Shown here one piece after another: positions 17,028 through 48,196 of a stretch of DNA of 64,000 nucleotides. Where the stretch lies: contig FMBT01000349.1 in the NCBI GenBank assembly GCA_900095095.1, positions 124,001 through 188,000 on the forward strand, in the 5' to 3' direction. The stretch's first letter is position 1, and the number at the start of each line of letters is the position of its first letter. This DNA is from Fragilariopsis cylindrus CCMP1102. Its lineage: Eukaryota; Bacillariophyta; Bacillariophyceae; Bacillariales; Bacillariaceae. The notes beneath the pieces were generated by a model, which was not told the DNA's origin, ran no database searches, and worked only from the letters and a program-made list of their open reading frames with translations. The position numbers and the translations under genes are program-made.

Positions 17028-18101
17028 TACTTGTAAGGTAGTTGTGATGTGATTTTAAGTGATTTGACTTTAGTGTGATGTGTGTGTGATTTATTACGAA
17101 TCAATCGAAATCACTGTTCTTGTTTATTTTGGAAGATTCACTTTTTCAATTCTGATTCATATTAAGATTGAGTGATAGATAGAGTGATAGAGAGAGAGAG
17201 AGAAAGAACCGATCAAGGTCATGTGAATGCCTAGTTAGAAATCAATCAAGTCGTGAAAGTACTGGTATTGGAATGGAGAATTTCTAAATAATGCATAGAA
17301 TCTTTTCTGAAAACTGTTACAAGATGAGTGTCGTGTCAAATAAGAACACTAACTTCACACGGTAATGAGGTGATTACCGTTCCCATTTTAAAGATGTCAT
17401 CGGCCGATTAGTATTTTTTTCCTCGTTCGCCGTTTTTTCTTTTCTCGTTACGTTACAATCACTGTTACACACAAAAATTCAAAATGTGGCGAACCCAATT
17501 TTTCTTTGATTTTTTACCTACCGTTATGCGTTACTAAAAAAAGAAGAAAAATGACGAGAAAATAACGACAATGGCACTAGCAAGCAAGCGATTGATCGAT
17601 GAAATGATGTGGTATTCGGTGTTATCGTTCGGTTGTGTTCTTGTTCGAAGCAAATAATCTAAGCAACAACACTTCTTTATTTTGATTGATTTGTGGAACT
17701 TGAAATACCTTCAGATCTTGATATTCTCCTTCCAAACGGATAACCGGAGGGGATGATGCACGTAGTTTCTAGCGAGGTGATGATTTTGATTTTGTGAGAC
17801 TGGGTTGTCATACGTACTGTAGAAAAAGATGGGAGTTGGTTGGTTGGCACGACGGCTATATAAATGCCGTGTACTATAAATTAGCGAATTAAAAATTCGA
17901 ATGAAATGTACGTGGCGACGTATGCGCGACCAAATCTACTTACATGCATATTGACAACATTTGAAAATTGCTCGTGATGATCTAATCTCACAAAGAAAAT
18001 CCCATCATCACTTTTTTTTTACACAAGCAAGAATTCGTTCCGCATGCGGGGATCAAATCCATTCTTAAAACCAACATTCCTTGTTACAATATATTACAGT
18101 A
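17028..18101. other. Intergenic spacer
   Basis: This is the upstream region of the PX-like gene. It holds a GA-rich microsatellite near 17180-17205 and AT-rich sequence, with no credible ORF or RNA gene. It ends at the TA target site of the inserted element. Confidence 0.5.
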
Positions 18102-19628
18102 CTTCCTCCGTGCAACCGTAAGTGTCGCGCGGGCTATCGGGTGAAAATTTAGCGTGAGTTATTAAGACGGTAAACCTTAAAATATTAAGATATAGGGTTA
18201 AAATAACCCCTTTTAACCCCAATAAGAGACAACAAACACAAAGATAATGATGGAACGATACTCAGTACAACAAAATAGATCCAAATAACTATCATTACGA
18301 TTGTATCATATAGGCTATATTTGTATTAATAAGTACTACTGTGTGTGTATATATAGATAATGAATCGATACTGTATGTACTGTACTTGTTGATTGTTCTG
18401 ATGGCAAATACGTTGTCAAATTCGTTGTCGTCCGTCCATTCCTCCGAGTAATATAGATCACATATCGGATCCATTCGTTGCAATCGTCCATTCCTCCCCG
18501 TAATAGATTAGACCATCGTGTATATTGTTGTGTTTGTATATAGTGTATATTGTTGTGTTTGTATATTATTTATTAATCCAACTCCCAGTACCATGCCTGG
18601 AATCGTTCATCTTCTTCCCAGATCTGATCAAATTCATCATCAATACCACCTGTAAAATTTTCATAATCAGGATGATTGACACTTCCTTGTTGGAAAAATC
18701 GTTCATATATACTAGCCGGGAGTAGTTTTTGTGGATTGTATATGTGTTCTGGTAGTATCTTTTGATCATCATTATTGCCAACGTTTGAAGTTGGAGTTGA
18801 AGTTGGAGTCGTATTAATCCCATCGGCGTACATGGTGGCGGCGGTGGAGGAAGAGACAGGAGTAGTAGAACGATCGATAGTTGTCCCATCATCGCCGTCT
18901 GTATCGTTGTCGTCAGTAGTAGTAGTAGTAGTAGTCCCATTGTCTTCTTCCTCACTTCCATTGACATTAACATTAGCATTATCATTGCCATTATCGTTCA
19001 CGGTAGTACTGGCTAATTCTTCATCATCATCTTCATTGCCTTCATTTTTGTCGATTTCACCTTCGCTGCTGCTGTTATCATTATTAGCAGTAGTAGGTAG
19101 AGGAGGATCACCTTCAACGAATCATGGTGCTGTTGTTGTTGTTGTTTTGGTCTTGAAAGAAGCAACACCTATTTATTTTTTTCTCGGTCAAAAAATGGAG
19201 TTAGAAGCTCCCGCTTCCTGTCATGTCTTGTGCTATTAATACCGAAGAGAGTGCGCCAAATTCGTTTTGTGATTATACCAATAGAAGATTTGATATTGTT
19301 AATTTGATGAAAATTATGACCGATTTGCTGCCAACAGTCCCGGTTTAGTAAAGAACTGATATTTTGGCTTCAAAAAAAAGGTCTTTGAACCAGAAAATGA
19401 GTGCAATAGTAGTAGTTGAGATGGTTGTTCGGATGAGTATGATCTTGTTTATTTTCATTCATTAGAAGTGGTCTAAAATTGAGCCACCATGGTCAAATCC
19501 ATTAGGACGTAATTAAAAAATAATAATGAAATAATAAAGTTTACGATGGAAAAAGAAGAACGTGTTAATAACACTAGCTAAATTTTCACGCGATAGCCCG
19601 CGCGACACTTACGGTTGCACGGAGGAAG
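18102..19628. mobile_element. TA-flanked terminal-inverted-repeat element (Stowaway/Tc1-mariner-like ends), 1.53 kb
   Basis: The ends CTTCCTCCGTGCAACCGTAA (18102 on) and its reverse complement (ending 19628) begin an inverted repeat. It matches over about 54 bp with one mismatch, then continues with weaker similarity to about 70 bp. Both ends are flanked by TA (18100-18101 and 19629-19630), the target-site duplication of Tc1/mariner-Stowaway elements, and CTTCCTCCGTG resembles the Stowaway terminus CTCCCTCCGT. No transposase is visible; the interior carries the 3' exon of an acidic protein on the minus strand. It is therefore a non-autonomous element that carries or spans host-like coding sequence. 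A second family member lies at 55705-55909. Confidence 0.8.
18573..19111 (-). CDS. 3' exon of an acidic hypothetical protein inside the TIR element
   Basis: The frame is open from a possible splice acceptor (GTTGAAG, exon from 19111) to TAA at 18573, about 179 codons. No in-frame ATG occurs before the middle (about 18834), so this is likely the last exon of a spliced gene or a gene fragment. The first 100 residues are Asp/Asn/Thr/Glu-rich low complexity. The end is distinctive and not repetitive: LLPASIYERFFQQGSVNHPD, then DEFDQIWEEDERFQAWYWELD. No upstream exon is evident inside the element. A CAA/CAG-rich stretch just upstream is open in another frame, so a one-base indel is possible. I do not recognise the protein. 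Confidence 0.45.
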
Positions 19629-19630
19629 TA

Positions 19631-22572: not shown

Positions 22573-23707
22573 ATGATACGAAGTAGCAAGTAGCAAGAAG
22601 CGTAAGCCGGAAGAAGAGCATGAGGTGGGCGACAATGAAGAAGAACGCAAACGCAACAGTTTAAGATGCGATGACGCCAATATAAAGGTTATTGTTGGGG
22701 GAGAGCTCCAACCAACGAAGAAGGTGTTCTGGCATTACAGTCAAGTCTTGGCATCCCAAAGCCGGTACGTGGATGCGTTGCTATCCGCACCTCTAGCAGC
22801 AGCTGCTGCTGCCTCAAAGAAAACTGAAACTGACGAAGAAAGCAAGGCAGCTAATTTTACAGAAATCACATTCCCAGACATCTCTCCATCTCAATGGGAA
22901 AGAATGATGAAATTCTTAACGGACCCAGTGGCTGCACGGGACATGAACAAAAAGGACGCGATTGAATTAATTATCCTGTACGATAAATATGATTTCACCC
23001 AGGGTATTGGACTGTGTGATAAAGTTTTATCTTCAATTTTTTACAAAGATTCGGAAGAATTCAAAGAACATATGAATGACCTTGATCTATTGGACCGATG
23101 TATTGATGTCGTTGTATTAAGTCACGAGAAAAATCTAAAGGAAACTATGAAAAATGCGAAATATTGGTTGTGTGATATTTTAGTTGATGGTTATGAATCA
23201 GAATTAGTGATCCTAACTGTAGATCACGTACGAAAACTAGTCCCTGTGATAGACAGTTACAAAGATGATACTGAGCAATATACCTTGCAAAGCGCTATCG
23301 AAGAACGTTTGGGTAAGAAAAGTATAGATGTACTTAGTCCCATGTTCCCAGACTTTTTTGTTGCTCAGATTCAACTTATTGCTGCTCGGGTTACCACTCT
23401 CAAGCTGGTCAACGAAATTACGATTGAAAATAGTTGGGGTAATATACCAGGAGATTACAGTCCCGAAATGGATGGAGATTTCGGAATTGATGGAACTTGT
23501 ATTTACTATAAAAAATGTACAGCACCTGCAAGGGGTTTCGTTTGGTTGAAGAAGAACCAAGTAGGTGACTGGACTATCAGCGAAAATTTACATCCGTTGT
23601 TCATATGCAAAGGTAGTCGATGTGCAACTCTACCTCCAAAGACAGGGTGGGAGAGCCGATGGTTTAACCGTTACAAGGATGCTTCCAGTAATTTCATATT
23701 ATCATAA
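22573..23707 (+). CDS. BTB/POZ domain protein
   Basis: DDANIKVIVGGELQPTKKVF and FWHYSQVLASQSRYVDALLS are the start of a BTB/POZ fold, an all-alpha/beta dimerisation and Cullin-3 adaptor domain. It continues through FTEITFPDISPSQWERMMKF and LIILYDKYDF. The second half (to ILS, TAA at 23705) has a BACK-like helical part and a unique ending. The coding frame enters from a TGA at 22574 with no in-frame ATG. The likely start ATG 22573 lies in another frame, and removing one base from the AAGTAGCAAGTAGC duplication (about 22582-22596) gives a start MIRSSKSKKRKPEEEHE and 377 residues. Many BTB paralogues of this size are typical of diatoms. Confidence 0.75.
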
Positions 23708-24093: not shown

Positions 24094-27000
24094 TCACATA
24101 AAGTGACGATGAGAGTTGGATTGCTGACTGCGGTTTTCGTCACCGAAAAAGTACGAGTCAGCATCACTGTCCACTTCCTCGATTATGTCATTAATAGACT
24201 TGGCGGTGCTACTCTCTTCGTTGCTGTATCCATTGTTAACTGAAATGTGTTGGTAGTCTTCCTCTCTGGATGTAGACCGTGGAGAACGAGGAGAACGAGG
24301 AGGCGAGGACGACGAAGGTGGTGGCTTTTTGAGATTTTCTTGGCTTTGTTCGGTATAATGAGAAGGTGGTGGCTCTTTTAAAGATGCTCTGGATAAACGG
24401 TAGGCAGTTGGTGGTGGAGCCTTTCGCGATGATCCTGGAGACGCTGTGAATGATCGTTCTTCAGAAGGTGGATGAGGTACCGAACTTCTCGTAGCTACTG
24501 AGTACGCCAGAGAATCAGTATCCGACATACCGTAGTGTCTAGATTTGGAGGAACTACCAACCGAATCCATCATACTATCGATGCTTTGTTGACCAAGTGA
24601 AGAGGTTGATTCTCCCTTTTCGCTCTTCAGTATGTTTCCACGTGGAGGAGATTTGTTGTGTTGTTTCTTGTCTGTATCGTCATCATAAGCCAACCTTTTT
24701 CCTCTTGCAGAAGATCGAAAAGAGTTGCAAGAGTTCGGCGACAGTGAACCTATAGACCCTTGTCGCGATTGCCTTGGTGAACCCCCCATTGATTCTGACT
24801 TGATTCTTTCGTCGGAACCTAGGTTAGACACAAACGTGCCTTTCATGATACGACCATTCGAAGTCGAATCATCGTTGTCGACTACAGTAGCTTCAGGAAG
24901 CGACCAATGACTATCATCAGGGTCATCCACAAAGAGAGTTCGTGCACTAGAGGCAATGCCGTTGCTGGCTTTTAACATCCAACGAAAAGAATCAGTAAAG
25001 AGGACGGGTACTGGATGGATATTCATAGCAGCGCCAGTATCGACTGTTTCCTCGTCATCGTCAGAATGCGATGTGCCGTCCGAAAAGCTACTATTCAAGT
25101 CATCCTTCCCTTCTGCCTCGTCACGGAGATATTGAACAACTGCCTTGCAAACAAAACTGTTAAGGAATGCTAGCAAAATAGCACTAGCTGCCAGGATGAA
25201 TACACTCTTTTCAATGCGAGAGGTGACACTGAAGCACTGTGCATCTTCCTCCTTCAAAACACCGTAGTAGACCATTTGCGCAAACATATCTTCAAGATTG
25301 CTGCAATAGGCGTTGATCATAAAGTCAGATATTGGCCCTAGTTGCCTGTAAGGAAAGACGAGAAGAAGAAGAAAGTGAGTACTTAAATCGAAAGCGTATT
25401 CGGCCGGCCGTATCAAAAAAATAGGATCAAAGATCACATACCAGCTGGAAACAAATAAAGCAATCAAGTAAACTTCTAGGTATTGCCAGGCCTGTAAAAT
25501 TTCTAGCCGAACCGCGATCTTCCTTTTTTGGGTAGTAGTTGTCTTTTTGTAGTATTGACGTAGAAGTGTAACTGATTGGATGATCGGAACGAGCAGGATA
25601 GTGGATACGAATATAATTGACAGTATGATAAGTCCAAGGTAGTCTTTCAGTGTACCCAAGTAGCTTGCTTGATCAAAGAGCAGTATAATAACTGAATAGA
25701 CACTGTGACTAATAGTTGCTTCTTCGAAGTCTTGGCCGAATTCAACTGCAACTCCAACAAGGCCAAAAAACTCTAGGGAAAATGAGGGTAGAGCACATCC
25801 AACAACAACACATACCAATAACGACAAGGCACAGAAGGGTAGTAAATATTTTACATAGCTTCGGACAACAAGCTTTTCTGTTTCACCGCGATGAGGTCGA
25901 CTAAACTGGTATGTACTGAGTGATGTTTCCTCTTCTCTAGCAGCTTTGGCCTCTGCAAAAGATGCACCGCCGATTGACATACTGGGGCTTTGTTCAACAG
26001 GAACGTCTTCAAGTGATGCACTGGGTTGGGATTGCTCTTGTCTAATATGGTTCAGGTGTGACTGCATTTTATTATCCAGCGCTTCTGGATCTCGGTACTG
26101 AGGTCGAGCTCGCGCCTCGGCTGGAGCAGTAACATCATGAGGGAGAGAATTATGCTTGAATCTATCGACTCCTTTGGTAACAATTCGACGGTGATAATAA
26201 ATTATTACATGAGAAGTGATTTGTGATGTCAACTGAGCAATCATGTTAGCGTACAAACCCCAGAGAGGAACAACCATCATGTCAATGGCATAGAAGTCAT
26301 CTGGAAGATATGAAGTGTCAGGGCTCTGGATGGAGATTCGGAAGGCAGCAATACTGATTACCAAAACAAAAATATCCAACCTGAAGTTTTATTATTGGCA
26401 GAGAGAGACGAGAAGGTAAGTTAGTGGAACTAGTATCTTATAATTCACGACTTCGTGTAGGTTTGTATCTCATCTATATCGTTGGTTGTTATCGTGAGCT
26501 TTTTCATTTTCTTTTTCACGGCAAAACTACTTACATACTCCACTTTGCTAGCCGGTCTAGCCAGAGCAAAATCGACCCTCGACGAGAGATTGATACATTT
26601 GACGGAGATGAAAACCAAAGCCAAAGGGTCATAAGGAGTTTGGTATATGGCCAAATCCCAGAAAAAATCAGAATGAGGACAGCAAGCTCCCGACCTCCAG
26701 CTTTCCAAATATCAACCGTCGATCGTGCCATTGAAAACTCAAAGAATTTTTCGATCTTGAATTTTTCTCCAGCCACTTCAGCTTCAATATTGACCGTAGC
26801 CCCTAGACTCAGATGACCAGAGAGGAAAAATAGAACGTTTGATACAATGATAATCGGGATAAGAAATCGTACAATGCATGGAATATCCGGACTGCGGAAC
26901 ATCGAACTTGTAGTGATATTAAGCTTGTCTTCTTTATCCACTTCGGAACGTTGTTGGTAGGCTAATTTCTTTATCTGATGAGGAGGAAGCTTGATCAGCC

Positions 27001-30000
27001 ATTTCCTATGTCGTCGTCGCACGATGCACTTCACAGCAACGACAATCAATGACACGATGATAACCAGTGCTAGGGATAATGCACCCAAGAGAGCGAGATA
27101 AGCCGTGGAATAGCTAGTATCAGGAGTCTCAAAAGCTTCGTAAACTAAAGGTGTTGCATCAGGATCATAGTTTCGACTATGTGGGCATTTGCGGGCTGCC
27201 TCGTTCAGTACACGGTCAATCTGAACTTGAAGGAAGTTTCCTCCCATCAATTGTGCTACATAGTCTAGAAGATCATTTGCCAAATCGGTTGTTTCGTTTC
27301 GTGCAGCTGGAGATGAAATCAAATCCGTCAATTCATTCATTCTTGGGCTAGAGCAATTAGTGCAACTTGCTGTCACAATGAGGCTGCCAATGTGAGCTTC
27401 TAGTTCAGATAGTGCAGCAGTTAATTCGGAATCATCGACTCTAACTCCGCGAGAATCTAATGCTGGCTCAGGAATTGTGGCAGCCCAACAATTCAGATCA
27501 AACAAATCTCGGAGAGGGAAACCAAGTAAACTGGACTCTGCGATCTTTATCATGGTTGAAAGAATTATGTTAGCATCAGCCAACTCGAGACTAAAAAGAA
27601 CCTCATTATCAATATCAATATTATCTACAAGAAAGAAGGTAGTAGGATGTAAGGAAGCAAAGAAAGAAAATATGAGTGACCAAATTAAATTGTCTTAAAT
27701 GACAGCACAGATTTGCTTAGCAAAAAACGTACCATCACCCTCAAGCGATAGTTGTAACTTAGACGATAACCGCAAGGGGTTTGTTCCCACCCCTAAAGTC
27801 ATGGTATTGTTCAGCATGTATGCTTCTCCCAAGATGCCACCGAACAGTTCAAGGGGTGCTCCAACTGTATCAAGATTCTCAATCTTTGCATCGAAAGCAC
27901 GGAATTGAACATTTGTGTCCAGCCCACCAACTTGGATTCTCTTTCCTCCCTTCAACAAATCACCGGGGTAGTGTATCGTGCCAGGCTCGTCATAATTCGA
28001 TGAAGTGAGGGGCGCTACTACGACGTCATTGAATCCCGATAGTCCTGTTGATTCGTCAATCTTGAAAATATTGCGAACAAACCCCATAGCTGTCCTGAAC
28101 ATATTACCATACTGAGAAAGACCCGTACCACCTAGTTGACTGGCAACAGTGGCAGTCCACAAAAGATCACGAATGTCGACAAATCCAGAACCAATGATTT
28201 CATCTGACGATGAATACTTGCAGAATTCAGCTGGAAATTCCTTGGTGTTATATTTTATCCAGTTATTCAATAGACCACGAACTGTTGAGTCAAAGACCTT
28301 AGGAATTGAAGAGATGATCTTATCTCCATATTCTTCTAAAATTAGCCGACTGCTCTCACTTGCTGCAGAACTAATATCGTTCGAGGTGAATCCCTTGATA
28401 GAAAACTCAGTCACTGAACCGATTGATACCTCGAACTCTGCAATACTTGCGTCATGAGCTGCAGACATCAGACAAGGTATGATATTCTTTATCTCCATCA
28501 TCCCCTTCATCTGAATGGAATCTAAAAGATCAAGATCCATTGCCAAAAACATTGCAAGAGACATATCGACATCAGATAGTGAAGCAGATATTATAATATC
28601 TTGCTTCGTGGTCAATGAGTCACCGTTGGGATCTTCCAAAGAAACCACTAGCTGTAGACGGACATTTTCCCAACTGATTTCATTCTGAATTGTTTGGGCC
28701 CCGATTGCATCCAAAATATTCAATTTAGAGATGGTATCTAACCCAAAAATTCGTACTTCCTTCAAGGAAATATTTTCTATTCCGGCTTTCGCAAGATTGA
28801 TGTTGTCAAATGTTAGAGAAAAAGATCCATTTTCATCCAGTAAGGATGATCGAATAAGATCGTTGACTCTCAAGTCGCTTTCATTGTTTGTTCCTTTGGG
28901 GTCACTGATTCTCTCGTTCATAAATGCAACTAAATTATCGACACCAGAGCTCGCCCATTCCCCAACGGATGTCTCTAGAGAAGTAAAGTCCACCAAACGC
29001 ACACCATCCGCAGGATTGAAATCATACTGTCCTGACAAGGGAAAGGTACTTTCTAAATCGTAGGACTCGTGTGCTTGTGCCATAACCACAGCTGCAATTT
29101 CTGCCACCACTGTGGACGCAAATGTGATGGTCTCGAGAGATTCTAAATCGAGAGAAGGGAAGCTTGGCGTGGGCGAATTTTTCGAGAAGGACGCCGATGG
29201 ACCGATAAACTTTGGACTATGGGGGCATTGTAACGCAGAATCAGTCAAAATCACGTTGATGAAGTTCTGGATGTAGTCACTACGCATAATGCCCATAATT
29301 AATCCGACAAGCCGCATCTCTAGAACATCCGAGATACCAAAATCTTCGAGTGACTGAAGAACTTCAGGAAGAATCGATAGGCTCGAACTGGTACAGGCGG
29401 CGCATGTGATGTTAAAATTCATGAATGTTGTAGACAGAAGAGCACTTACGATGGAAAACCCGGTTTCTTCGTCAGTAGCATATATAGAGTCAGGGGGTGC
29501 AAGGGTGTACAGCCAACACTGAAGATTTGTAATGTCTCGTAGAGGAAAGTTGAACAGCGTAGCAGCATCGACATTAGCCATCAAAGACGCCCAAATCTCG
29601 GCGCCGACAAGTTCCACAGATATGTCCATTTCATTTGTCATGGCAAACGTAGGATCCCCTTCTGTGGCAAGCAGCCCCTTCAAACCAATCCGAAGTTTCT
29701 TTGAGTTAGTTCCAAGCGTAGCATAATTATCAAGGATCTGTCCATTGGTGGCGTTCGGTTCCAGTAATTCGATTATCCCAATAGAATCGAGATTTTCAAT
29801 CTTCGGATCGAAGACACGGAGCTCGAATGAATCCAAACCAAACTGCCGGAACACATCCTTGGACACGAGGAAGCCTACGAAGTCCATTGGAAAAAGCATG
29901 GTACCTTCGGCACCAGATTGAGCCGCCGTCAATGGAGCTACTAGAGCTTCATTAATGCGGGATCTTCCGGTCTCGGTATCGATAGCAAGCAACTCTTCAT

Positions 30001-32204
30001 CTAGCATATTCTTCAACATAGGAAGTAAGTCACCATAGCTACCATCATTGGAATCAAAGAACTCGCGGAAGTCAACAAATCCTTCTTCGAACGGCTCCAC
30101 CTCGGGACACTTTGTATTGCTCTTGTCATCTTTGTGGGCATCGATGAAAGAAGCGTTGATCAAGTCACGAATACTCGTCTGGAAAACATTCGGAATAGCA
30201 GTACGAAGAGCACCTTTGTATATAGTAAATGCTGCTTCAATCGAGTCGGTAATGATGCGGTCGAGCCCTGAATCAAGTAGACCATTAACGACTGGCCCAT
30301 CATTAATGAAAGTTGGATCTACATCTAATCCAGAAAGCTTGACTTCTTCAATAATTGAGAGCAAGCACGGAAGAAGGTGTTCCATATAGAACAATGGGCC
30401 AAGCACCATGTCTCCCATGGCATCCTCGTCTAGTACCAATAGAAGAGAAGCCTCTACGTCGATATTATCAACAGTAAAATCGATACTGAAACGTTCTTTG
30501 ATACCAGGAGACGTAGGATCTACCAAAATAGCATCGTCCAACGTTGAAGGTTTGATGTCTAACTCAACATCAAATTCTATCCTTAGTGTGTCCCAGGTCA
30601 ATTCGTTCTGAATGGTATGTCGTCCAATGCTACGGAAGGAATTTAGTCGTGTTATAGAGTCTGATGCCATTATTCAAAGATTGAATGGTTGGGTATGAGA
30701 AGGGGAGAGGGAAGAAAGAAAGAGTGTGAATGAAGTGAAAATGAAAACAATGTTGATTTGAGAACAGGAACGTACGAACGAAATTGGTAGGCAAACACAC
30801 GTTGACTTGACTTTGTGGAATTGAATCCGAATACAAAAGTATGGGACAGCAGAAATGGAATAGAATCATATCGTTTCCCCCCTCCAACAAGGCATACAGG
30901 TAGAGCTCGCAGGCATGCAAAACTTTATAACAAACAAAGACTAACACTTTTAATGTTACTCACCAAGTCCATATAAACGAACTTCTTTCAATGTAACAGT
31001 GAATTGAGTAACTCGGTCGTGTCCCTCGAAGATAATAGGTACTTGTAGGGTAGAAGGATCGACCCGAAAAGATCCATCTTTTTCCAAAAGGAAGGACCGA
31101 ATAAAAACATTGATGGCTAAATCATTTTCTTCTGCCGAGGCGACCGAACTATTGTTGGAGGAATCGGTGGCGGCAGTTCCAAGAACAGAATCAAAGTATT
31201 TTAAAATCTTGTTGAATGTCTTTCCAATGTGACCTTCCGTATCTTGAAAATTTAGATGCTTGAAATCGTTGGAAAGGATTAAATTTGTTTCATCCCAGAG
31301 CGGATCAGTCCATGCTTCACCAAGAGTAACCATATAAGGTTCCAGTTGATCTTTTGCCATATCGACAGTATTTCCCACTATATTAGTCCCTACAACTGAC
31401 AGTTCATCACAAAAAACGTCCCCAATGGCTATCTGCACGCTGTTGTGAATCAATCCCTGGAATACCTCCAGTACCTCCGAGGCGAAGTCTTCCTCAAAGT
31501 CCATTCGTTTGATGTTCACGTCGGAAAAACAACTATCAACGACAGAATCCGTGGGAGGGTAACGTGAATCGGGTGTCTTGAACAGAATTGTTGATGTTGC
31601 CTCACTGTTATCGGTTTGGATGAGCACCCAACCTGTTCCCGACAGGATACCGTAATCGTAATCATAGTCTGATTTAGTGTTTGTTTGTGTATTAGGAGAG
31701 AGAGATATAGATTGAAGTTAGTTTAGTTGAATTCTTCTGTGATCTATGATACATAAACACACACACACACACACACACACACATACGACAATACATACCA
31801 ATTTCACATGTCAAATCAATCGATTTGACATCCACAGTTACTAGAAATTCATCATCGAACTTTTGTTCATGCTCGACCATGATATCTCCCACGTTCATAT
31901 CGTAGCATTTGATATTCCGAAGGTTCAGGTTTAGATCGACGAAGGCAACTCTTTCCGAGACCTTGAATTCTTCTGGAATAAGGATGTAGGCGTCATCAAA
32001 AATCTTGTTGAGCTCGACAAAGTCTCCGTATGCCACTCTACGGGTAGTTGTAGTTGTAGCAGCAGTCATCGAGGACCCAAAAGCTTGAGAGTTTGTTGGA
32101 ACAGGAAGCATAGTTAACGTCGCAACAAATGTAAGAATAGCTGCAACAATACCAGCCGACATAGTGCTCTTATTGCACGATGATTTGTTCGTGATCAACA
32201 CCAT
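24094..32204 (-). CDS. Giant membrane protein: tandem lumenal repeats plus PqiA/LetA-type membrane domain
   Basis: Five exons, 32204-31799, 31668-30964, 30660-27733, 27624-26535 and 26380-24094, join in phase to 2,471 residues. A signal peptide (GIVAAILTFVATLTMLPVP) precedes about 1,600 lumenal residues. These contain two related units of about 650-800 residues, with paired landmarks KEVRLYGLDSITRLN/KEVRIFGLDTISKLN, TIQNELTW/TIQNEISW, FDPKIENLDSIG/FDAKIENLDTVG, GFPLRDLFDLNCW/NFPLRDITNLQCW, a CxxC pair, then CPHS. A first helix (LGALSLALVIIVSLIVVAV) is followed by the PqiA-like core: FLIPIIIVSNVLFFLSGHLS, GRELAVLILIFSGIWPYTKL and RLAKWSMLDIFVLVISIAAF, the family signature. Further helices and a Ser-rich cytosolic tail follow. 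PqiA/LetA proteins work with MCE proteins in bacterial lipid transport; a lipid role here is inference. Confidence 0.75.
31757..31783. repeat. (CA)n microsatellite in intron 1
   Basis: An uninterrupted ACACAC tract of about 26 bp lies in the first intron of the giant PqiA-like gene (31669-31798). Confidence 0.9.
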
Positions 32205-33089: not shown

Positions 33090-35857
33090 TTAATTGTCCC
33101 GGGGTTGTTCAAGCGTGGAATTCTGCAATAATAGTGCCTCATTCTCTCCCTCTAATCGTGCAATCTTCTTCTTCGTATTATATAATTCTTCTTTGTGAGC
33201 TGTTTGCATCTTAACAAGCTCGCTACTCAGGTCGGCAATCTTTGCTTCAAAAACATGATTTTGTTCTTCAAGAACGCGGATCCGAATTTCTTCCGCAGAC
33301 AATTCTTGGTTTTGACCACTATTTTTGAAAATACCCCAAGAACTAGATCGACTAGTCGTTCCTGAACTTCTTTTTACCATCGCAGCTTGGAGAAACATAC
33401 CTTGGGGTGCCTCGTCAGCAAGATCTTCTGATGCCACAGAATCCTCCACGTCACTTGCTGCGGTAGCTCGATCGTCGTTGTATGCTCCTAATTTCCGCTC
33501 TGCCGATTCAGCCTTCTGCTTCCAATCATAAGTTTTTTCGGTCCACTCAAGAACTTTAGCACGGAGATTATCCGACTTTTCAGTCAACTCTTTCATACTC
33601 TGATTCATGAATACCGAGTTTTCCTTCAATAAATTATGCTTTTCTATTAAATCTTCACGGTCTTCATGAAGCCTTTCTACTATTTTCCTGGCAGCGATTA
33701 GATCCTCCCGAACAGTAGTTGCATCTTCCCGGGCCTCATTAAGTTTCTGCTTTGCTGATTGAAGATCTTGAGCATCATCCGAAATAGAGTAACTCGAAAG
33801 CTCTGTTCTAAGGGATGAAATGGTTTCATCCTTCGTTACCAATTTTGATGTGTACTCCAATCGTTCTCCCTTGAGTCTCCCTTGTAGAGCTTTCTTTTCT
33901 TGGTCCAGTTCCTCAATTTGAAGCTGAGGCACAGTCATCGAGTCTTTCAATTCTATCTCTAGTTTCTCAATTCGCAGAATTTGAGAATCAACTGTCTGTT
34001 CCTTTTCCGATAGCAGTTTCTTGGTACTATGTAATTCAACGAAAGAAGCTCCTCCGCCACCACTCTCTCCGTTTTCTAGTTTCTTCTCGAAATTTTGTAT
34101 ATCATCTAAGAGTTTTTCAATTTCTTCTTCTGATTCGCGTACATCATTCTCCAATTCTTCTTCCCTTCCTAATTGCCTGTCAATAGCTTGTTCCAAATTA
34201 TCGATTCGACTCTTCTCATCCTCGATGACCCGGTCACGCTCCTTCAACTCTTTCATCGCCTCGCTACGCTCTTCCAGCGATTCCATGAGTTCGACTTTAA
34301 CACGTTCAAGCTCTCTGGACACCTGAAGGAACTCATCCTTTTCTTGAATATGTTCTTCCGACATAGTCACTTGTTTCTGCAATGCTGTCGATAGTTGCTG
34401 TTGAAGTTTCAATATTTCTTCATTCTGTTGGTTATTTTCCGTCTGGGTAACCTGAAAGTCGACTGCTGTTCGCAAAAGATCATCTTCGATGACGCGACTA
34501 TTTCTGTTTTCTGCTGCGACAGGACTTTTTGTCTCGACATCATCTGCGAATGGATTGTGTGGATTGTCGTTGGCAATTGGATTGAGCTTCTCCTGATTTC
34601 TTTGGACCTTATCGTCATCCGTACCCTTGCTCTTTCCCATTCCAGTCCAAGCATTCTCGAACATGCTGCTAACTTTCGTATAGCTGCTGTTATTCTTACT
34701 ATTAGAAACTTCACTGCCAAATGTCGACGCGGAGGCATCTAGTTCAGGTTTCTCGTCGATGTAACCCTCTTTGGATCTTCTAAATTCTTCCGCGAGTCCT
34801 TCTAAGCCGTCACCAAAGTCATCTACCGGTAGCACCGGAAATTCCATCTTAGACTTACTTTTCTCTCTCTTTAATTTTTTGGTTTTATCTTTTACCTTTT
34901 TCTTCTTTGCTTTCGGAGACCCTGGCAAACTCATGCTTCCATAACTACTTGTACTGTCATTGTTCGTTTCTACCCTCGACGGAATAGAAATGTCTGCTGA
35001 TGAGTCGTCACTTTGAGATCTAGTACTATTTCGTTTCTTCTTATCTTTATCTTTGTAACTTCTTTTCTTCTTTTTCTTTTTCGACGAATCTTTTGTAGTG
35101 ATAGTACTACCACTACCAGATAAGCTTTTCTTTTCCTCTTCTTGGTACGGAATTTCCGACATAGATTTCGCAAATCGCGCCTTTGAAATGGATCGGGATC
35201 GTCTCGTTGCTTTTTTGGAGGACGCTCTAACACGAGCAGCACCCGTATCAACGATATCAGTCGTCGTCGACACTCGTCTTGATCTCGAGGCTGATCTAGA
35301 TCTACGAGGAGCACTATCTCCGCTGCCGCGAATGACGTCGTTGTTGTCATCTACATCTATGAGCGACGATTTTCGTCTCCCTCCACGCAATTTTTTGGTC
35401 GATTTCGATGTGGACGCTGATGTACCGTCTTTTAAGATTCGTGTCTCAGAATTTGATCGTTCCAAGGCTATTGAATCTATTTTTGATCGAACCTCGGAAC
35501 GATCTCCTCGGAAGACGCCACCTGTGCTTCTACTGCCCCTGCCACTGCCTTTAACTTTCCTCGTCGATGTCGCTTCTCCAATGTCACTCGCTAATCCTTT
35601 CAATCGTTTACTGACCTCGCTTCTGGAACGTTGTCTTCCAGTTGGACGTTCCGACTGCGACCGTTGATTGTTCGCCCGTCTATCTGTACGACCACGGTCC
35701 TTGGAATTTTTTTGTTAAAGCTCCAGGTCTCCCAATCATCCTCCTCCCTGCTGTTCAGTAAAGAAGAGGAATCGTTTCCACCGGCGGATCCAGAAATTTC
35801 GGCGTTCCCACGAAGTAGTGACCTGCCACTCAACAATCTTTTGAACTTTTCTCTCAT
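33090..35857 (-). CDS. Arg/Ser-rich coiled-coil protein
   Basis: The start is ATG 35857 (MREKFKRLLSGRSLLRGN). The frame runs to 35714, then must shift by one base. An A7 run (minus strand; T at 35707-35713) with one extra A would give NKKNSKDRGRTDRRANNQ and connect to the long frame ending at 33090, about 922 residues. The first 300 residues are basic and Ser/Arg-rich (SRSASRSRRVS, KKKKKKRSYKDKDKKK). Residues about 400-720 are a long coiled coil with heptads and Glu/Lys/Leu bias (RIDNLEQAIDRQLGREEEL). The C-terminus has a second coiled coil (IRVLEEQNHVFEAKIADL). It resembles the proteins at 48197 and 53240 in layout and in the central coil. No known domain; a cytoskeletal or scaffold role is only a guess. 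Confidence 0.7.
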
Positions 35858-38409: not shown

Positions 38410-41400
38410 ATGAGGCGTCCATGGCTAATGGCAGCATGGCCTCTTCTACTGTTGCTCTACTGTTCTTGTACCTTGACTACAGTCGCTAATGGTAGCAAGA
38501 ACAAGAATAACGACGCGAGATTGAAGGTTTCCATCCGAAAAGACACGATGGTGGGGGTCCCCTCTTGCCAACATACTTTTAGTCAAATCGAGTTACTCAA
38601 TTTGGTACGTGCGCGACTCTGCGAGAAAATTAGTATAAAAATTTATAGAGTGTCTTCTCCTGCGACATTATTTCGTTAAGTGGGAAAACGCTTCAAAATG
38701 GGGGAATGTTTCCGAATTTTCATCTTTGTGGGGGGTTACAATTATTTGTATCATTGAATTTATAAATTGAAACGCTTGCTTTTTTTACAACTACGTACAA
38801 GGAAAATGTACAAGCATTACGATACAAAGTACCTACCATTTCGTGTTGATTGCTGACTTGCGATTGGGTGCTACTCTAAGTTCCCTTTCATCTCTCCCAT
38901 TGTTATGTTGATATCGTGACCAATTTATCTCATAACATGAGGATTTTTCTCCTTCCTTTCTTTCTTTCTTTTTATTTAATTTTTTATATTTATTTTAGCA
39001 TTCTACCGAACCCATCATGATCCACTCTATCCAAACAAATCCCGAGGAGACTATGTTGGTAAGACCCGAAAAATCGCCAACGACGTCACCACGACGTCAC
39101 CAACATCGTTAGAACCGGATTATGCACGTAAATGGGATCATCATGATATTCCCCAGCAACTACACGTTTCGAAATTGCCTTCGGGTAGTCTCTCATTGGG
39201 TCCAGGACAAGTGGCAATTGTTCCTGTGACATTCCTCCCACGGTATCCTAGCTTCGTGGAAAAAGAAGAGGATAGAGACATCAAAGATATCAACAACAAT
39301 AAGAACAACAGCAACAAACAAAACGACAATCACAATAAAAAACACAACAACAATAATATGGATGATTACTATACGACAACGGTTACAGATGGAAGGTCTC
39401 CTCCTCCGCTAAGCTCCACCGCGAAATTAGATCTAATAGATTTGGTAGGAGAACGAGTCCTCAAAGTGATAGACAACAAACGACAATATATGAGGAATAC
39501 ATTAGATCCAACATATCGGCGGAGGAATAATATCAATCCGTCTTCTCTTCCGAATGGTGACGAAGAATATGAGGTCTCAACGACGGTCGTCGTCGATACT
39601 TCTCGAGGCATTGTTGAATTACCGATATCCGCTTCGAGCATCCGTGACAATTCTTATGGTATTCCGGACGTCATCAAATTTCACCATCCTAGCCTCACAA
39701 AAGATGATGGGAACGGTGATGACGACGACAACAACAGTGATGATGATGATGATATAGACGATGACGACTACAATGCTACTTGCGACTCGGGCGGTTGTGA
39801 AACATCCATTGGAGGAGCGGGAACAAGAAACCGTGCAGGTAGCATACCTTCCATGGATGGTGTTGTTATATTAGATACAATTCATGCAACAGATTTAATC
39901 GGTCTACACAATGAAAAAAATGATCGTGCTTCTGTACTAGATACTATAAAACCAGAAAGAGAATGCTTCGACCTGTATTTATCCAATCCTTTCCATGAAA
40001 GAGAACTGCAAATAATGGAAGTTTTAATATCCCGACCAGAGTTCGTAAGCGTGCAGTTTGATCCAGTAAGGATGGCTGCGTTAGATTTATCTGAGCTGGT
40101 CGGAAGTGGACCTTCTCAAGTCTTACGTCAATGGACCGAAGACGGTCCCCTGTATCTGCCACCGGACTCAGACAATCACTACATACTTACTCTTTGCACC
40201 GCATTTGAAGGCGAAATCAACCGTGACGAAGGATCTGAAACGTATCTGGATGAAATGTCAAAATGGATAGATTCTGGAGATCCCGATCGCAACCTAGGCT
40301 TTCTGCAAATTCGAACGGATGCTGAGACTCTTTTCATTGGTTTGGAACATGCGGAAATCGTACCGTTCTTGTCGCTGAAAAATGAGTCATACCATGACGA
40401 TGAACTTCAGAGTATACCACAAAATATCTCCTCTGTTACGGGTAGCACCAATGCAAAAACTGGTACAAGTACTCTGCTGAAGTCCGACCCAGAACGTCTT
40501 GATTTTGATATGATATCTACGACAAGTCCGGCTATGTACACTAGTTTTGGTTTGCAAAACAAATCACCGGTACCAATCCGAATTATGCGGGTTACTATTG
40601 GATTGGACACAAACGGAGACGAAGAAAAAGTGAGGGAGGCGGAGCTTATTGGACTAAAACTTAATATCAGTGTCAGGTCAGATGGAGGAGTCGAGAACGA
40701 CGACGACGATGATGATGATGATGATAATGACAATAAGGATCAACTAGATTCCCTCGTATTAGGATCAGCAACCACTCTCGACAATATATTTGTTTTGAAA
40801 TGCTCTTTGAATCCAGATCGCTATTTTTCGGACTCAAACAAAGAAGCATTTCATTTTAGTGGGACTATAGTTGTTCGGGGAACAATGGATACAGAACTAT
40901 CTTATAATCTATGGCGCGAAGAGACTCTTCGAAATCCATATCGTGACGAACACCTTACCCTTGAGCTGCCATTTTCCGTATCAATACTTAACGGTAGAGT
41001 GGAAGCCTTAATCGAGCGATCGAGTCACCCATACCCTCAACTATTTGCAGCTCAATCGTGGGATGGATCGGGTCGAGCTGTATCACATCTATTTTTCCCC
41101 ATGAATCACTATGCGGCTGTATCGGGAACCGAAGATGAATTACCACAACAAATGTATCTTGGAACGAATGAGATCAGACATGATCTTCGTATTCTAAGCA
41201 ATATGGTGTTTCCATTAACTCTTCTCGGAGCTGAAATTCTAGACGTTGACGATCCGGATAATACTGAGTCTCTTTGTAATAGATTCAATGTATCCGTGGC
41301 ACCACCATCAGATCCAGATGATCTTTATTTTGGGTTTGAGGAAATTGGGTTTTTATTAATGAAGTATAGATTTGGAGTTAAAGGGAAAAGGGGAGAAAAG

Positions 41401-44400
41401 GGAAATGATTCACTTCCACTCGATCTTGATCCTCATTTACCGAAGAGGTGTGCTTTGAACGTTATAACAAGCCCAGCAGAAGCTGGGACATTTCGAATTC
41501 CTCTACTTATTTTCCCTGGGAGCCTGGAAGTTTCCCCTGTCGACTCCTCGCCGATTCAACATTCTTCGCAAAGCAATGCTCTCGTGGGTTTTCATCATCT
41601 TTTGTCCTGGTGTCGATCATCTCGTCTAGGAAAGTCATTCATTGAAATCCTCGAAAAGTCCTCTGATGAGCGAAGGAAACCTAAGAGTGATTCTTATCTT
41701 CTTTCAAAATATATCTCGCAAAATTCCCAATGGGATCCAAAACTGAAACCAAGATTTCATCCGATCTTGTTGAAAGTTGGCGCAGTAGATAGCGGTAAGG
41801 TAGCAAAGATGCATGTCTATCTAACGAATCACAATCCAATACCTTTGACAATTTCGATTGATGTTGGTGAAGTGGAGGGCATGTCGATTACTCTAAGCCG
41901 CGATGCAAGTCAAGAGACAGGTGATGGTAACAGTCTACTTGATTATCTTCCTAAACAGGAAAAGTCATCTTTAGTCAAACTTGGGAAATATAAAGACCAT
42001 CCTGTAGCTGGGCTTCTTGAATTCTTGACTTCGAACGAGGAAGCTCTCGAGTTCACATCGAAATTTAATTTTCGTGATTCACTTTCACCTTATCATCCCG
42101 CTATCGATAGATCGGACGTTCTTCAACTATTACACGATTGGCATTCTAAGGCATTCTTTCATCGCGAACTAGTTTCTAATCGAGTCAACTCGAACGAATC
42201 GACAAGTTGCGAAGGGGATTTCCATCCGCCTGTATACAGTTCTTTCAACAGTACTCTTGATTTGACTAAGACAGAAGGACTTTCCGGTGCTTTTATTCTT
42301 TCAAGTGACAAAAGACTTGCTCGTCCACTCATCGAATGCTGGAAGCGAGATCCAGCTCTTATGTCATCCGATAGAAATACAATAAAAATACCACCAGGAG
42401 CAAGGGCGCGATTTGAAGTTCAGGTTCGAGCTCCGTCTCAGGAGTTTCTGGAAGATGATATCAGCCATCTTTTGACGTCTGGTCTTGTACTATCAACAAA
42501 TCTTGGAGATGTGATGCCTATTTTTGCAGTTTCTGAGGCTCTTCAAGGACAGCTACATGCATCCCAAGACATTGATGGTCAATTTGTTCCCGCAAGGCCA
42601 AAAGATGTGAAGAGAAATGTAATGAATGTACCTCTGGATCTAACTTGGAACAGTCGAGATGATGTGAAAAAACCAAGTTATGTCGACGCAATAACGATTC
42701 CTCCTGCTAACTTTACCACGCGAGTACCATCCCAGGAGACTATAAGTTATAATCTTGGACGTGGAAATTTGAGTCACGGGGTTCCTCTATACTTGAGATC
42801 ATCATTTTCCCGGGACGTACGCTTGCTGAATGTGGAAAGCTGTAATCCTTGGTTTAGGTTTGTTCCGTTGGACCGGAATGAAACCTTCGGAAGCTCATAT
42901 CATGATGAGGGAATCATTGTGGGTTCTATCCGGACTAATGTGGATTGTTCGTCGAATCATGTCACAGACAGCGGATTTCCGTCATTTTATCAATGCATGT
43001 TAAATTGGCTCTCACACCGCTTGAAGTTGCAACCCGAAGGCTGTGGGCTGAATAAGGATTCAAATCTTAAGCTTAGGCAAATCGATAGTGTAAAGAGAAC
43101 AATCGAAGTTGGTCTTCGTCGGTTGAAGAAGAGCTACAAATGCATGCATCGTCCAATCCTATTTCTGTCGATTTTGGTGTTTCTCCCTCAAATGAATCCG
43201 ATATAAGTAACATCAAAACAGGGCGTAGGAAGAATGACGGTGTCATTGCAGATCTTGATTCATATGATGCTATTTGGAAGGCCTTAAAGATGGCTGATAA
43301 TTTCGGATACAACTTATTGAGTTCATCCTTGAGAGCTACTGTCGAGTACGACTCAGAAACCTTGAGTGAAGAACTCGACGATTCGAGGAATAGTACCGTA
43401 AAGCAGAATCTATCCCTATCCATACACGATCTTACTGTCCAGTCTGTTCTTCAAGCACCGAAGCTTTTTGACGCTGATAGCGACTACTTGGAATTCAGAC
43501 CCACTGTTGTTGGATCTATAACCTCAGCAGTAATATCAGTACGAAACCCGACGGGGGTGCCTGTCAGGGTTCGTCTCGGTACCGCCCCTCTGAAGGAGTC
43601 CAATGTAAATTCGCTGACAGAATCGCCCGCTTTCAACTCACATTCATATACGGAAATTGAAAAAATACATCGAATCGCAAACCTGCACAACCCTTACGTT
43701 CAGAATGGGAAAAGTAGTGTCCCTACTAACGATAGTATGTCATTTTTGTGGTGGGACGGCAATGGAGGATTCTTTATCCCTAATGAGCATGGAGATGTAA
43801 TTCGCTCCCATCATAATATATCTGTCATACGTGGAGGTGGATCGACTAGTGTTAGCATGCTAAATCCATCACTTCAATCACAGGTTGGATTTTTGGTTGG
43901 CTGCGGGACGAGGTGTGGGTTGAGGTATAAAAATTACCTCAATATACCCATTGATCACCCTGTGTCAAAAAGTCCGATTGGAGCATCTGCTGCTTCTGGT
44001 ATCACATTAACAGGTCATATGCGCTATGATTCTCCTGAGACCAACGACAAAATTGGTGCAGAACCTTTGATTTTAGCTGGTGGTACGCCAATACCTGATA
44101 CCGGTGGACCGTCCGCCTTTGCCATTCCTTTTCCCGCTCTAGATGAAATTGTAATCCCGCCGTTCGGAAAAGGGCAATTGGGTCCGATATATTTCAGACC
44201 ACCTGGACGGTACAAAACAATTGGGTGTGATGTTGCCAGAAAGAGCGGTACCAAGCTTTATGGAGATAAGGAGATTCTGTGCAGTAGTCAAACATTCGAT
44301 TCGATGATTTATCTCGAAAATTCTTTGACAGGTATAGAAAAGGTAGGATTGCGAGGAAAAAGTGTATGGGATCACTTGTACTTCGTCGACCCGCCGCCCA

Positions 44401-47351
44401 AGCAAGGGGAAGATGCATTTGGTGATATTGAATTCCGTGATGGGATGCCAACACTACTTTTCTCTGGAACAAGTAATTCCGGTATAAAATTTAAGTCTAA
44501 ATCTTCATTATTTGGAAAGAAAATTCAACGCGTTTCGGTCACGAAAGAAGTTGTTTTGCATAACGGCGGAGATGCTGATTCTGAAGTAGCGGGAGTTTAC
44601 TTTTTGGGCATGAATAGTGATAGAGAAGAGCATGGATCATGCTCATTCGGTTCATTTAAACTTCTAAACTGTTGGGACATTTCTTCCAGTAAAAAATTTG
44701 AGAATATCCGTAATGGATTCGTATTGAAACCAGGAGAAAGTCGCTCTTTCTTTGTGGAACATCTTCCTGACTGTACAATGAAAAAAGAATTTGTCACCTT
44801 GCGTGTCCAGTTAAATCGCGCTAGCTCACTAGACGACACGACTTCGATTTTACATGGAGGTAGACATTCGAGATCGCGAGGAATACATAATCCTTTCCTG
44901 ATCAAAGATACTAGCATGTTCTTTGGGTATCAAATGAACGACGTCGCATTCGCACGTTGCATGCCTGCAGACGCGAGATTGAATAGTGCAGTCCTTTACA
45001 AAGATCTGACAACGATAAATACAGCAAAATTCTCTAACAGAATCAAAATGAAGGCATTTGGTGGAAATCAAAAAGAAAGTCCATTGCTACTATTCCAGGT
45101 TGTTCTTTTCTCGACTGCCGCTTTGTTGTTGTGCTATGCATTACGTGCAAGGTTTCATGCTATTCTGGGTATGCTGCAGAAAATGCAAGGTGTACCTCCG
45201 AAGAACTTCCGAAGTAATTGGAATGCAGCATTTAGATGTCTTGCTAGATCAGACCCAACTTCAACGGAGCTCCAGACTATGAGCCGTGAACAGATGCGTC
45301 ATGTTGTAATTGGACGGTATAAAGCGAAAGGAAATACGACGTCATCTTCGTTAAATAGTGTTAATGGGTTCTCACGAGATCGACGAGCAACAACATCCAA
45401 CAACCTACGTCAAAGGACAGGAAAAGAAGGAAGCACTGGTAATGATAGAATTCGGCCTTTCAGCGATGCGATTTTTCATGATACATCCGTAGCCGATGAG
45501 TCCTCATTGCGTATTCACTTTCCGGTTGGACTTGGTTGGCGAACTGCATATTCGCGTGGGGTTATAAAAGACAACTCTTTACAGACAACTTCTTTCGCTT
45601 CGAGAACGAAGGTCTTACTCGACCGTAGAGCCGCGGTAGCCCTACAAAATGATGCTAGCAATTATATCAAAATTGAGAAGAGTGAAAACAAGGGAGGCGT
45701 GAAGACGAACTGCACCGAAGAGAAAGACAAAAATAAGCTCAATGGAAATAAAAATGAAATAGCGGAAACCGCTAGTGTGATTTCGACATCTGAATCCGAA
45801 GAGACGGACGCCAACAAACCTGAAAGCTACCAGAGGGTTACAAATAAATATAACGAAGCAAGTCAAGCCAGAGATATAGTTCCTTCTGCCGAAAAGACAG
45901 AAATCGTTCCAGCTATTCCGAAGGAAGCTCCAAGAAAACCAAAATCTAAAACGGAGAAACATAACACGAGGAAGGGCGAGTCTCCTATCCAATCCATCGA
46001 GAGCACGAATACTGCTGATTCATCAAAACGAAATCAGAAGTCAAAGAATCAAGCTCCGAAAGCAAACGAGCGACAAGACACCAGCAAATTAGACAAATTT
46101 TCAAAGAATGCACCGTGGGGTAACAAAGAAAAAGAAAAAGTCGCCCCTAAGGATCTATCAGATCTGCTCGGCCCTTCACCAAAATCCACTTCATCAAAAC
46201 CATGGCAAGGAGACCGCCAAAAAACTGATACGGATGTGCCAGAGAAGAAACAGGTAGGAATACCAGAGAAGAAATCTAAAGGCAAGGCTAAAGGCAAATC
46301 CAACAAAAAGGCAGAAAAACAAACTATCCCAGGAAAGAAAGTTAATCTAGATTCTGCGCAGAAGGGAATGATTTCGACGATGTCAGCAGACGCGCCAGTA
46401 TTTGTCAATCGATCGCAACCTATCTTAAACCCTCCTCCCGGTTTTGGTGGAGCTCAAATTAGTATCCCTTCATCTCCTACCGCTAATACTCATTTGCCTC
46501 CTGCATCTTCGACAGAAAGTCAGCCTTCGCTAGAGACAATGCTAAATTCAGCGCTTACAGGAGGCTCTATTGATACCGATATTTCTCTTGGTGTTACCTT
46601 ACCCTTTGCGAAGAATAAAACGGGCGGCGGAAGCGATCTCTTTTTCCCCGGTAATATTCGCGATTCACGTCTCTCTGAATCTTCAGCAAATATTATACCT
46701 GGAATAGAAAATGATTTCGTATTTAAAGCAAACCCTTCTCCAACAGCAACACTCGGATTTAGAGTTGCAGACGTCGCAGCGATGGCGGAAAACATCAATG
46801 CGCTTGCTCCACCGGTCGAGCAGCCGTGGCTTCCTGGTTTGCTGAATGAAGAACCCGAGCCAGTTGAGCAGCCGTGGCTTCCTGATTTACTGAACGAAGA
46901 ACCCGAAAGCGGCTTCGATGTAATGGACTTTTTGGATGGTATTTTACAGGATGGATCTACTACCCAGGATGAACCAGTTAAAGAGTTAGAACCTGCTCTG
47001 TTAGAACCTACTCTTCCCGGTACTCCCAGTAGAGCTGTGGGTGGTGCACCAGGAAATACAATTGCACCAGTTTTGTCCAACCCCTGGGCTTCGGAGAGTA
47101 AGTCACGAGCGTCGGCTTACGGAATTTCCTTCGACGACAACGACGAGAACAACGTCAACGTTTCTTCTCAGTCAAGATTAAACGGCCTGTTGGAAGGAAC
47201 GTCGATGAACGAAGGTTTGTCGGGAGGACTTGGTGGCAACAATCCATTATTGACACCAGCTGCTATTCTAAACGCCGAAGAAAGCAACAAGATCGTCGTA
47301 GACGGCGACGAAAAGGCGATTTCGTTCTACGCTGGATTATTAAACGAGTAG
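38410..47351 (+). CDS. TMEM131-like secretory-pathway membrane protein
   Basis: Exon 1 (ATG 38410) encodes a signal peptide (LMAAWPLLLLLYCSCTL). A donor after 38608 and acceptor before 38999 keep the frame, although a stronger-looking donor 3 bp earlier does not. LSLGPGQVAIVPVTFLPRYP is the PapD-like block of TMEM131. Further Ig/PapD-like strands follow, for example LEFRPTVVGSITSAVISVRN. One membrane helix (QVVLFSTAALLLCYALRARF, about 45095-45155) precedes a basic, Lys/Ser-rich cytosolic tail of about 730 residues with a duplicated EQPWLPxLLNEEPE. Frames switch at about 43140, and one more A in AAA 43138-43140 gives about 2,850 residues, longer than the animal protein (about 1,880). Animal TMEM131 binds procollagen through PapD-like domains and TRAPPC8 through its tail; the cargo here is unknown. 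Confidence 0.75.
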
Positions 47352-48196
47352 GAAGAAAATTAAATTAATAATATCGATGCAATGCAAATTGTTTTTCGCT
47401 TCTTTGTTTAAGATATTCGGAAATATTGCCATTTTTATGATAGTGTAAAAAAGACATTATACCTATTTTAGTCTTTTGTAGCTTTTCTACTACACTTGCA
47501 TTGTTTATCAATTCTCTTCCTTATACTACTGTAACAAAATTTAGCCAGGCACTAAATTTAACCAAAGTTGTTATGCAATTAAGTATCGTGAATTATTCTT
47601 TCTTGATATAGGTTTTGTTGAACACGCAGTGTGTCTATCTAAGGGTATAAAGTTCATGAAAATAGGTTGATTGTTGTCAGTTGTGGCTAAATCTACCGGT
47701 ACCCAGTTTATAGCTCCTTAGTGAATCGATTTTTTCGCCGAGCACTAGGTCATCGGAACAGGGTAGTTAAATTTGCATTAATAGTTCCACTTCAAATTCA
47801 TGCAAGCAAAGGCAATAACATTGCATCATGTAATTACTCGGGACTAGATTGATTCCTACTTTTTTTGAGAAGGGGCTTAGCTTTAGTTGAGTCTTGGGCG
47901 TCTTGGTTACAGGTACTAGTAACAATTTTTTCCTAAATCTAACATACCAATAATATCATCTAATACTCACATACAGTACTAGTATACAGCGGGCGAAGTC
48001 ATATTTATAAATTATTATTTAGTGGTACTATTCACTATTATGCCATGCATAATGCATACAGTACTGTAAAAGCGAATTTCCACAGAAAAACAAGTTACGA
48101 CCAAGACATCATCACATCCAAATAAATTCACTCATCATAGACACCCAGTGTCACAGTAAATACTTACCTATAATAGAGTGCAAGTATCTATCAGCC
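47352..48196. other. Intergenic spacer
   Basis: 3' region of the TMEM131-like gene and promoter of the next coiled-coil gene. AT-rich, with no ORF, RNA gene or notable repeat. Confidence 0.5.

Follow-up and report, generated by a model that had tools for sequence, protein, structure and literature searches.

The gene considered here lies on the minus strand of a 64,000-nt stretch of the genome of Fragilariopsis cylindrus CCMP1102 (contig FMBT01000349.1), hereafter the window, whose numbering is used throughout. It encodes a single polypeptide in which a repeated lumenal region is fused to a C-terminal membrane part assigned, by profile match, to the PqiA family. This protein is probably a self-contained eukaryotic lipid transporter, composed of a chain of modules resembling tubular lipid-binding (TULIP) proteins and a LetA-like PqiA permease.

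Fusion of a Lumenal Region to a PqiA Domain

The protein matches the Pfam profile of PqiA (PF04403) with an E-value of 1.3e-16 and a score of 61.4 bits (cut-off 23.8). The match falls in two stretches, each of which passes the cut-off alone (E 1e-11 and 3.5e-6). This search supports the PqiA/LetA membrane domain that had been proposed in an earlier, sequence-only reading of the window. PqiA proteins are arranged as two tandem halves with about eight helices, and the helix count obtained from hydropathy is consistent with such an arrangement. Both membrane landmark motifs named in the sequence-only reading were found in the protein, with the correction that one of them, AKWSMLDIFVL, straddles the exon 4/5 junction.

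By sequence, the nearest solved structure is that of Escherichia coli LetA/YebS (9n8w), the sole PDB match at E-values up to 10 (E 1.9e-4). Residues K1675, S1709, and D1712 align with K346, S382, and D385 of the 9n8w chain. Since the LetA stretch that bears these residues reaches an i-Evalue of 1.4 when taken singly, their mapping relies on the shared WSMLD motif. In LetA, such residues form a polar network, and all three are invariant in the first PqiA halves (6/6) of the six loci described below.

The joint between the two parts is covered by exon 4, which on its own scores under the PF04403 cut-off (E 5.7e-4, 20.2 bits). Single frames also cross this joint in the paralogues L014, L015, L016, and L032. 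The L014 frame takes in the Pfam-matched PqiA part (20.9 bits, under the cut-off), and the frames of the other three extend to the first helix and loop of PqiA, stopping just short of the matched part. Because the open frame of exon 4 and four paralogous frames run from the lumenal into the membrane part, the two belong to one gene, as the sequence-only reading had claimed; that two neighboring genes were joined by mistake is, in the face of these frames, extremely improbable.

The exon structure required one revision. The five-exon model, which closed to 2,471 codons, has the correct ends and a frame that does close, but it reads through an in-frame intron of 96 nt (25441-25346) and was rejected with its product of 2,471 aa. 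Three observations identify this stretch as intron 5. It begins with GTATGTGATC and finishes with CTTTCCTTACAG, and GT…AG ends are present in 5/5 introns of the gene. At the same place, the paralogue L015 reads continuously without the 32 extra residues, and L016 has an intron. Finally, without it the second half of PqiA scores 27.4 instead of 20.8 bits and thus clears the cut-off of 23.8. These observations give a gene of six exons with a product of 2,439 aa.

Organization of the Lumenal Region

In the hydropathy profile, residues 17-35 form a hydrophobic stretch like that of a signal peptide, in agreement with the signal peptide proposed previously. The lumenal region that follows is read from its alignments as a domain N and two units, each made of a half a and a half b (N-a-b-a-b). 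The earlier description of two homologous lumenal units with matching cysteines (CAAC 790 and CPHS 849 in the first, CTNC 1434 and CPHS 1493 in the second) thus stands for the units themselves. However, these do not make up the whole lumenal part, and the plain two-unit description was set aside in view of the separate N-terminal domain and the division of the units into halves.

The repeat is established by the single-unit paralogue L015, which can be aligned with each unit (residues 80-880 at 387 bits and 904-1653 at 448 bits), together with the alignments of a1 with a2 (25.1% identity over 247 aligned positions) and of b1 with b2 (29.8% over 289 positions). The identity between b2 and the b half of L015 reaches 40.6% over 298 positions. 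Self-BLAST did not list the repeat: with the lumenal part as query, the sole match was that of the full length to itself.

Domain N is classed as a TULIP of the BPI/CETP type on the evidence of its relatives. The window protein itself has no match to PF01273 at E-values up to 1. Its N domain is counted in this family because that of the paralogue on contig C411, with which it shares 22.8% identity over 180 positions, matches PF01273 at 34.2 bits (cut-off 28.8). The best PDB matches of profile A4, built from three of the four available N domains, are BPI and LBP, and four cysteine columns are invariant in 4/4 N domains.

For the halves a and b, Pfam gave no match. Half a is probably a TULIP, according to a fold match obtained with a predicted model of the L015 paralogue (predicted local distance difference test score 45, low confidence). 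Half b gave a poor structure model and no significant fold match. The profile alignment between a and b scored 40.45, against a maximum of 28.98 in 300 block shuffles, and was at background level in two split-gene tests; b is possibly a diverged copy of a, and would then be a TULIP-like module as well. The TULIP/BPI-like fold guessed in the sequence-only reading thus holds for domain N and probably for a, but no fold could be assigned to b. The alignment sets of a and b, as well as A4, were built without L014, and the L013 allele is absent from all alignments. Alignment A2 corresponds to A1 minus the exon-1 piece of the window gene, which was dropped because MAFFT misplaced it.

A Family of Paralogues with Lumenal Regions of Different Lengths

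In agreement with a diatom origin, the genome (67.9 Mb in 818 contigs) gave 27 matches to silicon transporters (PF03842; best E 1.1e-226), which are typical of diatoms, although a few other groups have them too. When this genome was searched for PqiA, 11 matches at the exon level turned up on seven contigs. A second search, with the lumenal part of L015, returned 16 matches spread over five contigs and brought in C411. The membrane part of C411 scores 16.1 bits against PF04403, under the cut-off, and is assigned to PqiA on the strength of its alignment with residues 1640-2121 of the window protein (26.9% identity, 169 bits). Contigs C60 and C275, identical over the gene, were counted once, as were C192 and C613, which are 92.8% identical over 7.3 kb. 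Six distinct PqiA-type loci result, of which five have a fused lumenal region, with differing lengths.

The layouts, assigned from alignments and reading by eye, are N-a-b-a-b for the window gene and C411, N-a-b for C68, and a-b for C674. The divergent lumenal region of C192/C613 is read as N-a-b, a weak assignment since the lumenal search with L015 did not find this locus. In the 4.3 kb upstream of the PqiA gene of C265 (L012, 3824-5570), no lumenal sequence was found; this gene is possibly a stand-alone eukaryotic PqiA.

Proposed Function

It is proposed that the signal peptide would send the chain into the secretory pathway, where as many as five modules resembling TULIPs (N on sequence evidence, a probably, b by extension) would form a lipid-binding lumenal or extracellular chain. 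Lipids would be held in the hydrophobic tubes of these modules, as in TULIPs, and exchanged between them and the LetA-like PqiA permease, to or from the membrane. Between the two parts, an additional transmembrane helix would take the chain across the membrane, leaving PqiA oriented as in bacteria. Because this linker helix is followed by a basic stretch, the positive-inside rule would place the chain in the cytosol after it; PqiA would start there, as in bacteria, and the tail would end there. A similar element is present in L015 and L016. The TULIP chain would then lie on the periplasm-equivalent side, where the MCE tunnels are located in bacteria, and may take the place of such a tunnel. 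The topology, the lipid binding, and the transport are all predictions for this protein.

With much lower probability, the five lumenal modules could form a continuous hydrophobic conduit on PqiA, as a one-chain eukaryotic counterpart of the trans-envelope lipid tunnel LetAB, whose length would be set by the number of modules, with each length fitted to a different membrane gap. Among the paralogues of this genome, the predicted module numbers are two, three, and five.

A location in the plastid has also to be considered. There, the protein could carry lipids across the membranes of the plastid, perhaps as a substitute for a TGD2/MCE system. This alternative arises from the N-terminal sequence SQAFGSSMTAATTTTTRR: its SQA↓F (residues 39-42, window 32079-32090), followed by a stretch containing Ser/Thr and Arg, resembles the ASAFAP plastid-import motif of diatoms. 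It would also agree with a search of the genome for MCE (PF02470) and MlaE (PF02405), which gave no match, although this search was made exon by exon and can miss split genes. However, the N-termini of L014, L016, and L032 show, by eye, no F at the equivalent place, and the conserved cysteines fit the secretory pathway, which makes a plastid location unlikely.

The protein could instead be a surface receptor or scavenger, whose TULIPs bind external lipid in the manner of BPI and LBP and whose PqiA part is an anchor, or signals through the tail, without transport. The proximity of domain N to BPI/LBP and the long Ser/Pro-rich, predicted cytosolic tail would suit such a role. Nevertheless, a mere anchor would have no need of the invariant LetA-matching K, S, and D, and a single helix would suffice for anchoring. 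A receptor is thus quite improbable, and a lipid transporter remains the preferred interpretation.

If this transporter is real, a eukaryotic lineage has joined the permease to an unrelated lipid-carrying fold, which would mean that PqiA/LetA is not tied to a single type of conduit. With both parts in one chain, such a transporter would offer a simpler system in which to study lipid handover by LetA-type permeases, and the graded lumenal lengths within one genome make it possible to test whether the lumenal modules act as a conduit or as carriers.

Table 1. Coordinates of the gene and its predicted domains in the window.
Feature	Window position	Strand	Residues	Remarks and basis
Whole gene, six exons	32204-31799, 31668-30964, 30660-27733, 27624-26535, 26380-25442, 25345-24094	-		Phases close, one terminal stop
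Signal-peptide-like N-terminus	32082..32204	-	1-41	Hydropathy peak at residues 17-35; putative cleavage SQA↓F by eye
Domain N, BPI/CETP N-type TULIP (by relatives)	31322..32036	-	57-251	Split by intron 1 (31669-31798); paralogue C411, profile A4, cysteines
Domain a1, probable TULIP	30128..31264	-	271-548	Split by intron 2 (30661-30963)
Domain b1, possibly diverged copy of a	29207..30088	-	562-855	CAAC and CPHS cysteines; fold unproven
Domain a2, second unit	28208..29005	-	923-1188	Identity to a1
Domain b2	27167..28192	-	1194-1499	CTNC and CPHS; split by intron 3 (27625-27732); identity to b1 and L015 b
Exon 4	26535..27624	-		One open frame: end of b2, linker helix, start of PqiA half 1
Predicted linker transmembrane helix, then basic stretch	27026..27109	-	~1519-1546	Hydropathy 2.99, top peak of the protein
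PqiA half 1	26170..26878	-	~1596-1780	K1675/S1709/D1712; split by intron 4 (26381-26534); PF04403 E 1e-11 alone
PqiA half 2	25126..25860	-	~1884-2096	Split by intron 5; PF04403 27.4 bits without intron 5
Intron 5, 96 nt, in-frame	25346..25441	-		GT/AG ends; paralogue comparison; PqiA score gain
C-terminal tail, predicted cytosolic	24097..25125	-	2097-2439	Ser/Pro-rich by eye; topology from hydropathy

Other Features of the Window

Outside this gene, about 1.5 kb of the window (18089-19630) is absent from contig C275, which matches up to 18088 and from 19631, and is a possible insertion. Very long frames (1408, 1420, 1106, and 874 aa) lie at 38980-47351, 48053-51373, and 33090-35714 and have no Pfam match at E 0.001. 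The same is true of a 376-aa frame at 22577-23707, BTB-like by eye. An open frame at 57248-58132 matches the flavin amine oxidoreductase profile PF01593 (E 1.4e-5).

Comparison with Known Systems

In bacteria, PqiA and LetA are partners of MCE tunnels, and the tunnel is encoded by another gene. The window protein resembles E. coli LetA/YebS and PqiA in its two PqiA halves, and its match to LetA also falls in two stretches. It differs from LetA in that its lumenal lipid part belongs to the same chain as the permease, and in that the conserved K, S, and D lie in the first half of its PqiA part and align with the second LetA stretch. LetA also carries cytosolic zinc ribbons, of which the window protein gives no sign: its CxxC motifs occur only at 790 and 1434, both in the lumenal part, and it is for this reason filed as a PqiA-domain protein and not as a LetA orthologue. 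With the LetB and PqiB tunnels, it would share the role of an outer-side conduit for a permease of the PqiA type, whereas its lumenal fold is different and the exon-wise search found no MCE match in the genome. With BPI, LBP, and CETP, it shares a domain N that is, on the evidence of its relatives, homologous to theirs and in which a pair of cysteines lines up with the pair of BPI; in contrast to these proteins, it is longer, is predicted to be membrane-anchored, and contains halves a and b without Pfam match.

In the literature searched, outside of which lie preprints and most subscription papers, no description was found of a repetition of the lumenal unit, of paralogues whose lumenal regions differ in length within one genome, or of the linker helix, and no paper on PqiA or tubular lipid-binding proteins in diatoms. 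The terms "paraquat-inducible protein A" and diatom matched a sea-ice metagenome study (PMC8548342). Only one paper found there joins PqiA, TULIP, and eukaryotes (Wong and Levine, 2017; PMC5507252). It describes a few proteins, from protists and amoebae, in which a C-terminal PqiA is fused to CETP/BPI domains, and suggests that the two parts handle the same lipid. Its section 2.1 mentions neither a diatom nor a lumenal repeat like that of the window protein, and the words "diatom" and "stramenopile" do not occur in its text. The basic design, a secreted-side TULIP and a C-terminal PqiA in one chain, was therefore already known from these proteins (Wong and Levine, 2017). The window protein shares it, and differs in having a domain N and two a-b units, thus five predicted modules. 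As judged from its domain assignments, it is an extended version of a known but neglected design.
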